64,000 nucleotides of DNA from Gemmatimonadota bacterium (GTDB lineage: Bacteria > Gemmatimonadota > Gemmatimonadetes > Gemmatimonadales > Gemmatimonadaceae): contig JAQBPX010000028.1 of NCBI GenBank assembly GCA_028287305.1, positions 1 to 64,000 on the forward strand, read 5' to 3'. Numbering within the stretch: position 1 is the stretch's first letter; every line of letters begins with the position of its first letter. Shown here piece by piece: positions 9,865 to 61,685 of this stretch. A program made the translations under genes and the position numbers. The notes under the pieces are model-generated. The model worked only from the letters and a program-made list of their open reading frames with translations, ran no database searches and was not told the origin of the DNA.

Positions 9865-10105
9865 CGGAACTGCAACTGCAGATCCTTCGCTGGGCCCAGC
9901 AACTCCGCCACACTGAAACTGCCTCAACTGCGACTGACTTGAGCCACGGGTTTCACGGGCGCCTGCTGCTCAGGCGCATCACTGGCATCAGATGCCAGTG
10001 TCAGCCGCGCAGCGGCTCAGTGCAACCCGTGACTCAAGGCTGTTGCTGTTTGGTTGTTTCAGTGGCGGCGAACTGCAGATCCTTCGCTGCGCTCTGGATG
10101 ACCGC
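9865..10105. repeat. Intergenic repeat cluster with nested inverted and direct repeats
   Basis: No gene is seen in these 241 bp. A 19-bp direct repeat AACTGCAGATCCTTCGCTG occurs at 9874-9892 and 10071-10089. Between the copies lie two nested inverted pairs: CACTGAAAC 9911-9919 with GTTTCAGTG 10056-10064, and CTTGAGCCACGGG 9938-9950 with CCCGTGACTCAAG 10026-10038 (one mismatch). The region lies between two convergent genes and could fold into a long hairpin. Confidence 0.8.
10076..10103 (+). repeat. REP-like palindrome, complete copy 1
   Basis: The bases CAGATCCTTCGCT-GCGCTCTGGATGACC form a short imperfect palindrome (ATCC...GGAT). It lies two bases from the stop codon of the minus-strand CoA-binding gene. 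A close copy with the same flanking logic is at 52798-52826, and a truncated copy is at 9878-9892. Confidence 0.75.
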
Positions 10106-15029: not shown

Positions 15030-16304
15030 TCAGACCTTGAAGATAATGTTTCGGCGGTAGAGGATCGCGAGGATCCCCATCCAGAGCAGCACGAAGGATA
15101 AGGCGAAGGCCAGCGACGCGTTGATCGGCGAGAGCCATCCCAGGAAGAGCGTGCGATAGATGGCGTCCTGGAGGGCGATGGTCTCCCCACCGTATGACAC
15201 CTTGAAGATCGAATAGATGCAGCGGGCCATGACGCCGGAGCCCACGAACGCGATCATGGGGTTCACGCCGTAGATCACCCACGGCTTCGTCCATCGCGTG
15301 AACTGGTGGATGTCCACCACGTACATGATGGTCGCGAGGGCCACGCAGGCCATGCCGGCGGTGAAGACGACGTAGGAGCTGGTCCAGATCGTCTTGTTGA
15401 TCGGGAACACCCAGTGCCAGGCGAGCCCCGTCATCATCGCCAGCGCGCCGGCGGCGAAGAGCCCGTTGAGGCGTGACTCCAGCGGCCGTTGGCGCTCCCC
15501 GATCCAGCGGCCCGCCATGTTGCCGAGCATGGCGGTACCCACGGCGCCCATGGTCGAGAGGATTCCCTCGGGGTCGTACGTCACGCCCCCGATCCAGATG
15601 TGGTTGCCGAGGCCGAATCGCGTCCAGTCCAGCGTGAAGCGGTCGAGCCACGCGGCCATGGTGACCTCGGGGCGGTCGAGCAGGAGCGCGCCGATGGTGC
15701 CGTTCGTTCCGGGCACCGGGATCACCGTCATCAGGATCCAGTAGCCGACCAGGATCCCGGAGAGGATCGCGACCTGCTGCTTGAGCGTGGTGCGAAGCCC
15801 GATGAGCGCGGCGATGGTGTACGCGATGCCAATGCGCTGCAGCACGCCGAGGAAGCGCCAGTGATAGAGGCGGTCCACCACGCGCTCGAGGAAGGTGGGA
15901 TCGGCGATGCCGTCCACCTTCGCCCAGGTGAAGTAGGGAAAGCCGTTCACCATGAAGCCGAACAGGAAGATCAGGAACCCGCGGCGGAGCACCTGCTTCC
16001 GGATCGCGGCCTCATCGTCGTCGCGCGCCCGGCGCGAGGAGAGCGAGAGCTGCGTGGTGATGCCGGCGATGAAGAGGAAGAAGGGGAAGATCAGGTCGGT
16101 GGGCGTCCACCCGTTCCACGCCGCGTGCTCGAGCGGCGGGTAGATGCTGGCCCAGCTGCCGGGGTTGTTCACCAGCAGCATGCCCGCAACCGTGAGCCCG
16201 CGGAACACGTCGAGCGAGAGCAGCCGCTCGCGGGCCGGCGGGGCCTCGGAAATGGGCTCGTACCGCACGGAGGCCGGCGGGGCTTCGATGGTGGTGGGGG
16301 TCAT
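15030..16304 (-). CDS. HGSNAT-like transmembrane acyltransferase (DUF5009/DUF1624)
   Basis: A 424-residue membrane protein with about ten or eleven helices of the heparan-alpha-glucosaminide N-acetyltransferase/YeiB-like family. The opening motif 'RLLSLDVFRGLTVAGMLLVNNPG' and the following 'WNGWTPTDLIFPFFLFIAG' are hallmarks, including the conserved DxFRG. Further family segments are 'LGVLQRIGIAYTIAALI' and 'NKTIWTSSYVVFTAGMACVALA'. Relatives pass acetyl groups across the membrane to amino-sugar substrates. Proximity to dacB suggests peptidoglycan or surface-glycan modification, which is inference. The stop lies 44 bp before the dacB start, so they are likely co-transcribed. Confidence 0.84.
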   Translation of the reverse strand: MTPTTIEAPPASVRYEPISEAPPARERLLSLDVFRGLTVAGMLLVNNPGSWASIYPPLEHAAWNGWTPTDLIFPFFLFIAGITTQLSLSSRRARDDDEAAIRKQVLRRGFLIFLFGFMVNGFPYFTWAKVDGIADPTFLERVVDRLYHWRFLGVLQRIGIAYTIAALIGLRTTLKQQVAILSGILVGYWILMTVIPVPGTNGTIGALLLDRPEVTMAAWLDRFTLDWTRFGLGNHIWIGGVTYDPEGILSTMGAVGTAMLGNMAGRWIGERQRPLESRLNGLFAAGALAMMTGLAWHWVFPINKTIWTSSYVVFTAGMACVALATIMYVVDIHQFTRWTKPWVIYGVNPMIAFVGSGVMARCIYSIFKVSYGGETIALQDAIYRTLFLGWLSPINASLAFALSFVLLWMGILAILYRRNIIFKV

Positions 16305-16342: not shown

Positions 16343-16883
16343 ATGCTGTTCAACAACTGCAAAAGCTGTGGCCGCGGACGACCGCGGACTACCGCGGACG
16401 AACGGCAACTGCAACTGCCTTTGCCGCGGACGAGCGCGGACGAGCGGGGATAACGACAGGAGAAGTTGAGCGGTCCTGTAAGTCATCCTGCCTTGTTCGC
16501 GCTCGTCCGCGGCTAAAAAAGCAGTTGTAGTGGTCCACAAGTGCCTTGAGCCCCGGCGTGCCGGGAAACTGCCTTTGCCGCGGACGAGCGCGGACGAGCG
16601 CGAATAACGACGGGAGAAAGGTGAGCCCTCCTGTAGTTCATCCTGCCCGTTCCGCGCTCGTCCGCGGCTAAAAAGCAGTTGTCGTCGTCCCTGACAAATG
16701 CCTTGAGCCCCGGCGTGCCTGAGCAACTGCCCTTGCCGCGGACGAGCGCGGACGAGCGGGGATAACGACAGGAGAAGTTGAGTGGTCCTGTAGTTCATCC
16801 TGCCTTGTCCGCGCTCGTCCGCGGCAAAAAGCAGTTGCAGTTGTCCGCGGTCGTCCGCGGTCGTCCGCGGCCAATGCTGTTCA
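16343..16883. repeat. Palindromic composite repeat element with three tandem internal modules
   Basis: This block fills the only gap over 300 bp in the window (16305-16901). Imperfect terminal inverted repeats of about 41-48 bp (GCCGCGGACGACCGCGGAC...AACTGC at 16371-16418 and its complement at 16831-16871) enclose three tandem modules starting at 16413, 16567 and 16725 (periods 154 and 158 bp). Each module is itself a hairpin: AACTGC..CCGCGGACGAGCGCGGA on the left and CGCGCTCGTCCGCGG..GCAGTT on the right. ATGCTGTTCA occurs on both outer sides (16343-16352, 16874-16883). A related single-module copy is at 61493-61656. No credible coding sequence is inside. Confidence 0.85.
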
Positions 16884-16901: not shown

Positions 16902-17735
16902 CTACGCCCGCTGCGCGCTCTGCTGCGTATCCTCGGCCCCCGCCTGCTGCCAGCGGAAGAAGACCACCGAGATCACCGCGAAGAAGAACAGCCCACCCGG
17001 GATCCACATGATGAGGCCGCCGAGCATCTGGTCGTCCATCGGCGTCATGCCGAGGATGCGGGGCGCGCTGGAGTACGCCGGGTAGAGGGCCGCGTCGGCG
17101 TAGGCGATGTAGACCGCGACGATCGACATCGGGATGCTCATCAGGAACAGGTAGAGCATCTGGAGGGGATACGACAGCCGCGGCAGCTCGGGCAGGGGGC
17201 TGAGCACGGGCCACCACATGAGCACCGCGGCGACCATGAACATCAGGTGCTGCACGATGTGGATGTCGTGGTGCGCCATGGCCGTGTTGTACATCACGGG
17301 CAAGTGCCAGCCGGCCACCACCAGGTTGAAGATGGCGAAGCAGGCGCGCGGCGTGGTGATCGCCCGCGCGATGCGCGCGACGGCCGGCACCTCGAGCGCC
17401 GGGCGCAGCATCCAGCCGGGCGTGCCGAGGAGCAGGAGCGGGGGCGCGACGAGGGTGAGCAGCAGGTGCTGCACCATGTGCGCGCTGAACAGGTAATAGT
17501 CGCTGAGGTCGTGCAGCCAGCCGTTGAGGCTGAAGAAGATCACGAGCAGGCCGGCGGCGAACGAGGCGCGCTGCGCCGGCGAGGCAGGCTGGCCCGGCGG
17601 TGGGGCGTGCCGGGCGCGCCAGGTGTAGAGCGCGCCCAGCACCAGCAACCCGATGACCGTGCTCCAGTGCACGGTGAACGCGGTCCAGCTGAGGGTCGCC
17701 CCCGCGTGCAGCCACGGGGCGAACGGGAGGATCAT
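16902..17735 (-). CDS. ctaG: Cytochrome c oxidase assembly factor CtaG (caa3 type)
   Basis: A 277-residue membrane protein with about seven helices of the caa3_CtaG family, required in Bacillus for formation of active caa3 oxidase. Visible features are 'LSDYYLFSAHMVQHLLLTLVAPPLLLLGTPGW', 'AHHDIHIVQHLMFMVAAVLMWWPVLSP' with conserved His residues suited to copper binding, and 'DQMLGGLIMWIPGG'. The ATG at 17735 overlaps the stop of the subunit IV gene by four bases, so the two are coupled. It is the last gene of the oxidase operon. This is the Bacillus-type CtaG, not the unrelated Cox11-type protein that shares the name. Confidence 0.9.
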   Translation of the reverse strand: MILPFAPWLHAGATLSWTAFTVHWSTVIGLLVLGALYTWRARHAPPPGQPASPAQRASFAAGLLVIFFSLNGWLHDLSDYYLFSAHMVQHLLLTLVAPPLLLLGTPGWMLRPALEVPAVARIARAITTPRACFAIFNLVVAGWHLPVMYNTAMAHHDIHIVQHLMFMVAAVLMWWPVLSPLPELPRLSYPLQMLYLFLMSIPMSIVAVYIAYADAALYPAYSSAPRILGMTPMDDQMLGGLIMWIPGGLFFFAVISVVFFRWQQAGAEDTQQSAQRA

Positions 17736-32203: not shown

Positions 32204-32215
32204 TCCGGTGCGCGC

Positions 32216-32400
32216 CGGGGCCGTTGCCTCGGACGTACGCGGACGAACTGAAGCGGAAGTTCGCGGAGACGGCAACAGCAACAGCTTGGGAACTGCCACT
32301 CAAGATTTGTGGAGCGCAGTTTCAAAAGCACTGCAGTGGCAGTATCCGCGAAGGTTTCCGCCCTTCAGTCCGCGCCATCCGTGCGCACCGTCCCCGCGCA
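32216..32400. repeat. Inverted-repeat intergenic region after leuS
   Basis: No gene is seen. GCGGACGAACTGAAGCGGAAGTTCGCGGA-type bases at 32239-32268 and a related inverted copy at 32345-32373 can pair into a long imperfect hairpin. The second arm contains a 30-bp core (32352-32381) that is identical, on the opposite strand, to 47779-47808. AACTGC and GCAGTT hexamers occur inside. The convergent leuS and VIT genes make a two-way termination role likely. Confidence 0.7.
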
Positions 32401-32408
32401 CCGCCTGA

Positions 32409-33551
32409 CTACGTGAGCGCCTTTGCCACCCACTCGCCCACGTAGTACCCCACCGCCGCCACGCCTACGCCTACCACGAACATGTCGAGGCCGCTGCGGA
32501 ACACGCTGCGGCCGGTGAAGGTCGAGCGCGCCGCGCCAACCAGGAAGTGCGACAGCATCGCTGCCACGAACGAGATCGCGATGGCCGTGGTGCCGCTCCA
32601 CACCAGGAATGGGAACACGGGGATCAGCGCGCCGATCGCCGTCGCGCTGCCGGTGATCCACGCCTCGCGCATCGGTGACATGTCCGGGTCCGAGATGCCG
32701 AGCTCGTTCTGCACCTGCTCCTCGAGCATGCGCTCCGGGTTCGCCATGATGCGCGTGGCGATCGCGTGTGCCTCCGCCGCGGGCATTCCCTTGGCCTCGT
32801 AGATCAACGCCAGCTCGTCACGCTCGATCTCTGGCATGAGCGCCACCTCGTCGCGCTCCATCGCGATCTCGTGCGCGTACACCTCCTGCTGGCTCTTCGC
32901 GGCGAGGTACCCACTCGATCCCATCGAGAGCGCGTCCGCGATCAATCCCGCCACGCCCGCCAGGATCACGGTGGCGTGCTGGTTGGCCGCACTGGCGCCG
33001 ATCACGCCGGCCACCAGCCCGAAGTTCGCCGTGAGCCCGTCGTTGAACCCGTACACCACGTTGCGCACCATGCCGCCCGACTCGGTGCGGTGCCAGGGCT
33101 CCCCGGTGCGGCCCGCGATCTGGTTGAGCGTGGTGGCGTGTTCCGCGGATTCCTTCGCGAGCAGCAGCGCCTCGCCATTTCCCGCGACTCCAGCAGGCGT
33201 CGACCGGTGCATCGCGAGGTAGCCCTTCACCTCGCGACCCTCCTCGGCCAGGAGCATCGGCAGCAGGAACTTCGGCCCGAAGCGGCGGCCCAGCCAGGCG
33301 AGCATTCGCGTACGTCCCGTGGGCCGGAAGGGCCTCGGCGTGCGCCCGTGCTGGCGCAGCAGGTCGCCCCAGACCTCCACGTGCCGGTCCTCCACCTCCG
33401 CCAGCCGTCGGTAGATGTCGCTCTTCTGCTGGTCCGACTCGGATTCCGAGAGGATGCGATAGAGGAACGCCGCGTCGGCTTCGTCCTGCCAGTGGTGCTC
33501 GAAGGTGTCGAGGTCGGGGGTGCCGGCAGCGGGAGGAGTGAGGGTCGCCAT
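32409..33551 (-). CDS. mbfA: Ferritin-like domain fused to VIT1/CCC1 iron/manganese transporter (MbfA/erythrin-VIT type)
   Basis: A 380-residue fusion. Residues 15-165 form a ferritin-like four-helix domain with EAD, EVEDRHVEVW, EEGREV and ESAEH motifs supplying a di-iron site. Residues 170-380 are a VIT1 transporter ('NVVYGFNDGLTANFGLVAGV', 'DALSMGSSGYLAAKSQQEVY', then acidic metal-binding helices and a C-terminal helix pair). Related MbfA proteins export iron and protect against peroxide. It probably detoxifies iron at the inner membrane. The gene is convergent with leuS and single in its orientation. Confidence 0.88.
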   Translation of the reverse strand: MATLTPPAAGTPDLDTFEHHWQDEADAAFLYRILSESESDQQKSDIYRRLAEVEDRHVEVWGDLLRQHGRTPRPFRPTGRTRMLAWLGRRFGPKFLLPMLLAEEGREVKGYLAMHRSTPAGVAGNGEALLLAKESAEHATTLNQIAGRTGEPWHRTESGGMVRNVVYGFNDGLTANFGLVAGVIGASAANQHATVILAGVAGLIADALSMGSSGYLAAKSQQEVYAHEIAMERDEVALMPEIERDELALIYEAKGMPAAEAHAIATRIMANPERMLEEQVQNELGISDPDMSPMREAWITGSATAIGALIPVFPFLVWSGTTAIAISFVAAMLSHFLVGAARSTFTGRSVFRSGLDMFVVGVGVAAVGYYVGEWVAKALT

Positions 33552-61492: not shown

Positions 61493-61656
61493 AACGACAT
61501 TTTGCCGCGGACGACCGCGGACGACCGCGGACAACTGCAACAAATTTTGCCGCGGACGAGCGCGGACGAGCGCGGAGGAAAACAACAGAGTTGTTAGGTG
61601 CGCCTTCGCCCGATTTCTAGCCTGCTCGTCCGCGGTAGTCCGCGGCTAATGCTGTT
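61493..61656. repeat. Single-module copy of the palindromic repeat element
   Basis: AACGACATTTTGCCGCGGACGACCGCGG on the left and CCGCGGTAGTCCGCGGCTAATGCTGTT on the right (each read in parts) are imperfect inverted ends like those at 16343-16883. The inside has one CCGCGGACGAGCGCGGACGAGCGCGG tract and a small AACAAC-AGA-GTTGTT hairpin. No gene lies in the gap 61418-61685. Confidence 0.8.
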
Positions 61657-61685
61657 AGGGCTGTTGCCTCAGCAGTTGCCCGTCC

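Follow-up and report, generated by a model that had tools for sequence, protein, structure and literature searches.

A nested palindrome beside ctaG in a Gemmatimonadota genome is probably an ORF-less member of a GxxExxY-associated palindromic element family

The nearest described relative of the element considered here is the 23S rRNA intervening sequence (IVS). In Coxiella burnetii, the IVS has a terminal stem of 28 bp and a decaying S23p ORF that is preceded by GACAGAT heptamers, and has been proposed to be a former mobile element (PMC4990558). It sits in 23S rRNA helices and is excised by RNase III, and its ORF belongs to PF05635. We describe a palindromic block in a stretch of DNA of 64,000 nucleotides (the window). 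With the IVS, the family to which this block belongs (family A) shares long-stem inverted arms, short tandem units beside an ORF, one small ORF in the loop and copies in which the ORF has decayed. It differs in being intergenic, between protein genes, and in that its coding copy carries PF13366 (GxxExxY) rather than PF05635, with units of 10 bp. Two further groups invite comparison. REP, BIME and REPIN sequences are likewise dispersed, intergenic, palindromic and non-autonomous and form composite arrays, but their foot tag (GTAG or CGTC) is not seen in family A, where the feet of the palindromes are AACTGC/GCAGTT, the palindromes span at least 110 bp and the arms consist of tandem units. MITEs of DDE insertion sequences are also short, non-coding, inverted-repeat copies presumed to be moved in trans; family A departs from these in lacking a recurrent target-site duplication, in its tandem-unit arms and in having a coding copy with a PD-(D/E)XK nuclease.

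The block lies in the gap between two minus-strand genes, ctaG (PF09678), whose stop is at 16902, and the next one, which starts at 16304. It is a nested palindrome, in which outer arms built of 10-bp units (CCGCGG-ACKA), in the order CCGCGGACGA-CCGCGGACTA-CCGCGGACGA, surround three hairpins of 112-114 bp (Table 1). An earlier sequence-only reading had described long terminal inverted repeats, and the repeat search indeed pairs 16361-16399 with 16843-16881 at 90% complementarity. That reading had also reported three modules of 154-158 bp. Direct repeats do occur three times, at intervals of 154 and 158 bp, but the palindromes themselves account for only 112-114 bp, the rest being a spacer of 40-44 bp; the AACTGC and GCAGTT bounds are present on all three. 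Folded as DNA, modules 1 to 3 give z scores of -6.9, -8.4 and -9.0 relative to shuffled sequence. The units of the inner hairpins (CCGCGGACGAGCGCGGACGAG) differ slightly from those of the outer arms, and the arrangement supports a reading in which G-type modules are nested inside a C-type element. On this view, a G-type copy would first have inserted into the loop of a C-type copy and then been duplicated in tandem to give the three-module block. No Pfam family is matched by any ORF overlapping the block, in line with the earlier statement that no protein is encoded. Rfam returned no match anywhere in the window, and a known RNA family was accordingly dropped as the identity of the block.

Table 1. 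Palindromic features of the window (positions in nucleotides of the 64,000-nt stretch)
Feature	Position	Strand	Basis
Family A composite element, ORF-less (outer arms and three hairpin modules)	16343..16883	.	Sequence reading, repeat search, Pfam
Outer left arm, AACTGC..GGCCGCGGACGA-CCGCGGACTA-CCGCGGACGA, 10-bp units, C type	16355..16406	+	
Outer right arm, reverse complement of left arm	16837..16883	-	39 nt at 90% complementarity
Hairpin module 1, G-type arms CCGCGGACGAGCGCGGACGAG, AACTGC..GCAGTT	16413..16526	.	Repeat search, folding
First inter-module spacer; CTTGAGCCCCGGCGTGCC resembles the GCGCCGGGGC outer ends of other copies	16527..16566	.	
Hairpin module 2, AACTGC..GCAGTT	16567..16680	.	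Repeat search, folding
Second inter-module spacer, homologous to first	16681..16724	.	
Hairpin module 3, AACTGC..GCAGTT	16725..16836	.	Repeat search, folding
Second family A copy; C-type and G-type left arms in tandem, right arm CTGCTCGTCCGCGGTAGTCCGCGGC	61501..61668	.	
Family B palindrome, ORF-less, GCGCCGGGGCCG..CTCGGAC.TACGCGGACGAACTGAAGCGGA	32208..32412	.	Arm comparison
Family C palindrome, ORF-less, CTTGAGCCACGGGTTTCACGGGCGC..	9911..10064	.	Arm comparison

The outer motif does recur, as had been noticed from the sequence. The core CCGCGGACGAGCGCGG occurs 19 times in the window at up to two mismatches, compared to 1.4 expected by chance, and the simpler version said to exist elsewhere in the window is the second family A copy of Table 1. 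A search of the genome (4.37 Mb in 39 contigs, completeness 100%) for the core yielded 41 exact matches and none for a reversed-pattern control. By our count, family A comprises about 28 dispersed loci at E <= 1e-3. As for the number of modules per locus, one composite with two modules lies at G000:C24:177256-177534, but most loci are single hairpins; other copies are nested. Together with the patchy occurrence of relatives at an orthologous site, the dispersed loci and the nested and tandem-module copies support the earlier suggestion of a mobile or expandable palindromic family.

The loops of family A copies differ widely in content. Some hold a few bases only; others hold a hairpin that resembles a terminator, an ORF of 225 aa or an intact GxxExxY gene. 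The last of these is found at G000:C4:607.3-607.9 kb (L107), between arms that are identical to the window modules at 36-38 of 40-44 nt. The encoded protein matches TIGR04256 at 114 bits (cut-off 35) and PF13366 at 116, and its N-terminus, QPRTSADERG, is read out of the arm. The terminator-like sequence is a perfect hairpin, GAAACAGCACACCCCTCGGGTTCGAACCCGAGGGGTGTGCTGTTTC, in the family A loop of L068 (5100-5150; G000:C5:19.4 kb), and a similar hairpin stands beside a GxxExxY element in L067. The 225-aa ORF is surrounded by doubly nested family A arms (L072, 4990-5840; G000:C12:306.5-307.3 kb); it has a lipoprotein-like N-terminus, matches no Pfam family and may be a passenger gene.

On balance, we think it probable that the window block belongs to a palindromic mobile element of the GxxExxY kind, of which it would be a nested copy, ORF-less and non-autonomous; the complete form of the element in this genome is the L107 copy, and ORF-less copies would be moved in trans. 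The arms of the block are homologous to those around the GxxExxY gene and are made of tandem units within the 8-10-bp range (10 bp here), and the block has no nuclease gene of its own. Profile searches found no PF13366 on contig C33, which carries the block; hence the block is ORF-less and, if the model holds, non-autonomous. Several observations weigh against this explanation. One is that no consistent target-site duplication marks the element ends: over 21 loci, the longest direct match between the flanks averaged 5.5 nt, versus 5.2 nt for mismatched flanks. The window block, with ATGCTGTTCA as a direct repeat at both of its ends, has a 10-nt flanking match and is the sole such case among the 21. 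As a general target-site duplication, ATGCTGTTCA was therefore rejected. Another is that families A to C are far richer in ORF-less than in ORF-bearing copies, which would also fit a gene that is merely hitchhiking. Moreover, none of 24 GxxExxY candidates in IMG/VR viral contigs was confirmed, so that no vehicle for transfer is seen. The genes of this genome without clear arms, the partial dependence of the cross-phylum loci and the direct repeats at some of these, all taken up below, count against it as well. We also considered an attC or integron array for family A; the copies, however, are single sites dispersed over the genome, and their ends do not fit, so this identity was dropped.

The protein encoded between the family A arms belongs to TIGR04256 / PF13366 (PDDEXK_3), a family named by its motif only. 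Catalytic E, D and ExK residues are invariant in 34/34 aligned GxxExxY proteins. The predicted structure (pLDDT 91) has lambda exonuclease, LHK-Exo and Cas4 as its Foldseek neighbours (probability 1.00, E about 1e-3). In predicted fold the protein thus resembles PD-(D/E)XK nucleases of the lambda exonuclease, Cas4 and RecB type, although it is much smaller and has no profile-level sequence relation to them; a profile search of the PDB with the GxxExxY sequence found no related solved structure.

Families B and C extend the pattern within the same genome. The left arm of the family B palindrome in the window is identical at 51/59 positions to the left arm of a GxxExxY element (L106, G000:C28:10.2 kb), and the arms of the family C palindrome match two others (L108, C12:190 kb; L110, C4:628 kb). 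Several more ORF-less copies of the two families lie within the 476 kb of the genome examined for them. There are thus three arm families, A to C, each with ORF-bearing and ORF-less members. Two pairs of elements share arms in this genome, L099/L100 and L108/L110, and by protein, too, these pairs are the closest in their families, so that the sequences support joint inheritance of arms and gene. The two arms of one element are closer to each other than are arms across elements (6.5 versus 7.65 mismatches in 30; permutation p = 0.011 with simple overlapping palindromes left out, p = 1e-4 with these included).

How generally such genes lie between inverted arms was scored by comparing the 400 bp on either side of each gene for their best inverted match, relative to 200 dinucleotide shuffles (p <= 0.01). 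In this genome, 12/15 genes for GxxExxY or four-helix (PF05635, 23S-IVP) proteins are enclosed (Fisher p = 3e-7 versus ParE), the remaining three being without clear arms. Across 61 genomes of the class, enclosure was found for 22/27 four-helix genes (p = 9e-10), and in a cross-phylum sample for 33/43 GxxExxY loci (p = 2e-10), which are in part dependent: L130, L136, L138 and L144 share a gyrB-gyrA site, and L139-L145 include several Prevotellaceae. By comparison, only 1/29 ParE toxins of the same class and 0/29 ctaG positions were enclosed. A direct-orientation control gave 0/15 for this genome, 2/27 for the four-helix genes and 15/43 for the cross-phylum GxxExxY loci, the last count being high because some loci sit in arrays of these repeats. 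A cross-locus null is inflated by the resemblance between arms from different phyla; shuffles, direct orientation and control families were used instead.

The enclosing arms are usually tandem arrays of short units in inverted order. Among periodic GxxExxY arms, the period is 8, 9 or 10 in 18/19. Units are 7 or 14 bp long in 15 of the 23 periodic arms around four-helix genes, but in none of the 19 around GxxExxY genes (p = 8e-6). The PF05635 genes of this genome occur in arm families separate from family A.

These figures bear on the strongest alternative, in which host processes such as template switching or quasi-palindrome repair make and spread the palindromes, and GxxExxY or four-helix genes are passengers that survive in the loops because insertion does no harm there. 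This account would explain why ORF-less copies so far outnumber the others, and it is consistent with arms that enclose a terminator-like hairpin at C5:19.4 kb and the 225-aa ORF at C12:306.5-307.3 kb. It does not predict that the same two protein families should lie between arms in many phyla, at 75-80% compared to about 3% for a small mobile toxin family, nor that arm sharing should follow the closest protein kinship and unit length should differ by protein type. We regard it as unlikely, if still deserving of weight.

Mobility of the GxxExxY element is suggested chiefly by comparative presence and absence at gyrB-gyrA. In a Verrucomicrobia genome, a GxxExxY element with GACAGGATTAACAGG arms (L144) lies between the two genes, and its arm supplies the stop codon of gyrB. 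Among Chthoniobacterales, the element is present at this junction in 7/28 genomes compared and missing from close sisters. One sister (L178) has a different, ORF-less palindrome of TGACGAATG units there; in another (L179) there is no insertion and gyrB and gyrA overlap, and L185 provides a second precise empty site. Mapped onto the flank tree, presence of the element requires 7 changes of label, a distribution compatible with recurrent gain, with recurrent loss or with exchange. The junction looks like a hotspot. ORF-less palindromes of the TGACGAATG type occupy the same gyrB-gyrA junction as the GxxExxY element in L178, L182, L190 and L191. The ctaG junction orthologous to the window locus measures only 19-27 bp in L221, L227 and L229, and in L205 it holds another palindrome, of GGTGCTAGGTGC units. 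This evidence is weaker than that from gyrB-gyrA because the relatives are distant (other genera).

Such patchiness at orthologous sites argues against a structural repeat of the host, that is, a terminator, an mRNA 3' hairpin or a nucleoid or topology site, with GxxExxY as a housekeeping nuclease that acts on it. The position of the window copy 3' of ctaG, the high stability of the hairpins and a 10-bp unit of about one helical turn are all compatible with such a role. However, the copies are nested, several unrelated arm families coexist in one genome, and family A is not conserved at the ctaG junction of relatives, so that we consider a structural role improbable.

Still less credible, in our judgement, are two transposase-driven identities, a DDE-type MITE and a RAYT-mobilised REP/REPIN. 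Non-coding, palindromic, dispersed and nested copies would be expected of either. The sequence-only reading had pointed to a RAYT-like mobiliser, and here it was not borne out: a profile search for RAYT (Y1_Tnp, PF01797) found no match in this 100%-complete genome, compared to 5/14 control genomes with a match, and the arms accompany a GxxExxY PD-(D/E)XK nuclease instead. Target-site duplication is not recurrent, the arms consist of 10-bp units in tandem and not of a fixed terminal repeat, and the homologous ORF-bearing copy carries the GxxExxY gene. An RNA-level element like the 23S rRNA IVS, spread by reverse transcription with the four-helix protein as an Avd-like partner, is the least plausible of all: PF05635 genes do share the architecture, with arms of 7-bp units that recall the heptamers and stem of the Coxiella IVS (PMC4990558), but reverse transcriptase (PF00078) is absent from 7/7 high-quality genomes that carry four-helix genes, this one included, and the family A protein is GxxExxY, not four-helix.

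If the GxxExxY palindromic element is indeed mobile, its anatomy suggests how it might move. In single-stranded DNA, the arms would fold out into a hairpin or cruciform, which the element's nuclease would cut or trim. Host repair or replication could then copy the element to a new site with no fixed target-site duplication, and the GxxExxY protein of an ORF-bearing copy may act in trans on ORF-less copies. A hairpin-directed nuclease working without a transposase would, if this is true, represent a new way of moving DNA, and whether a small PD-(D/E)XK nuclease does so is now a question open to direct test.

The anatomy of the Coxiella IVS is that of the four-helix elements described here. A broader reading, which we advance tentatively and hold to be somewhat less than an even prospect, is that, across bacteria, GxxExxY and four-helix (IVP) genes together supply the coding part of a single general class of mobile palindromes that have no transposase, of which the 23S rRNA IVS would be a special case that landed in rRNA. 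Each member of this class would have one small gene flanked by arms of short tandem units in inverted order, and would spread ORF-less copies in large numbers. Both genes occur in many bacterial genomes and their role is so far not known; the finding that most of those sampled lie between arms, and that controls do not, gives them a common context. It also accounts for otherwise anonymous intergenic palindromes in environmental bacteria and offers an origin for 23S rRNA intervening sequences. In the open-access literature, we found no paper that joins GxxExxY to palindromic arms and none with the arm sequences, subscription papers being outside this search. The data point to a widespread class of small bacterial mobile elements, undescribed as far as the open-access literature shows, and there is a substantial chance that this class is a distinct one.

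Several further loci came to light in the course of these comparisons. Plasmid 1 of Gemmatirosa kalamazoonensis has three GxxExxY places, one of which (L289) has complete palindromes of CCGCAGAGGACGCAGAGG units on both sides of the gene. In a member of the Desulfobacterales (L126), the GxxExxY gene is embedded in tandemly arrayed GACAGGATGAACAGGAT palindromes. A further palindrome that recurs, TCATCCTGAGCGAAG..GAAGGATC, is present in this genome and in Chthoniobacterales (L181, L199 and L067 1331-1870).
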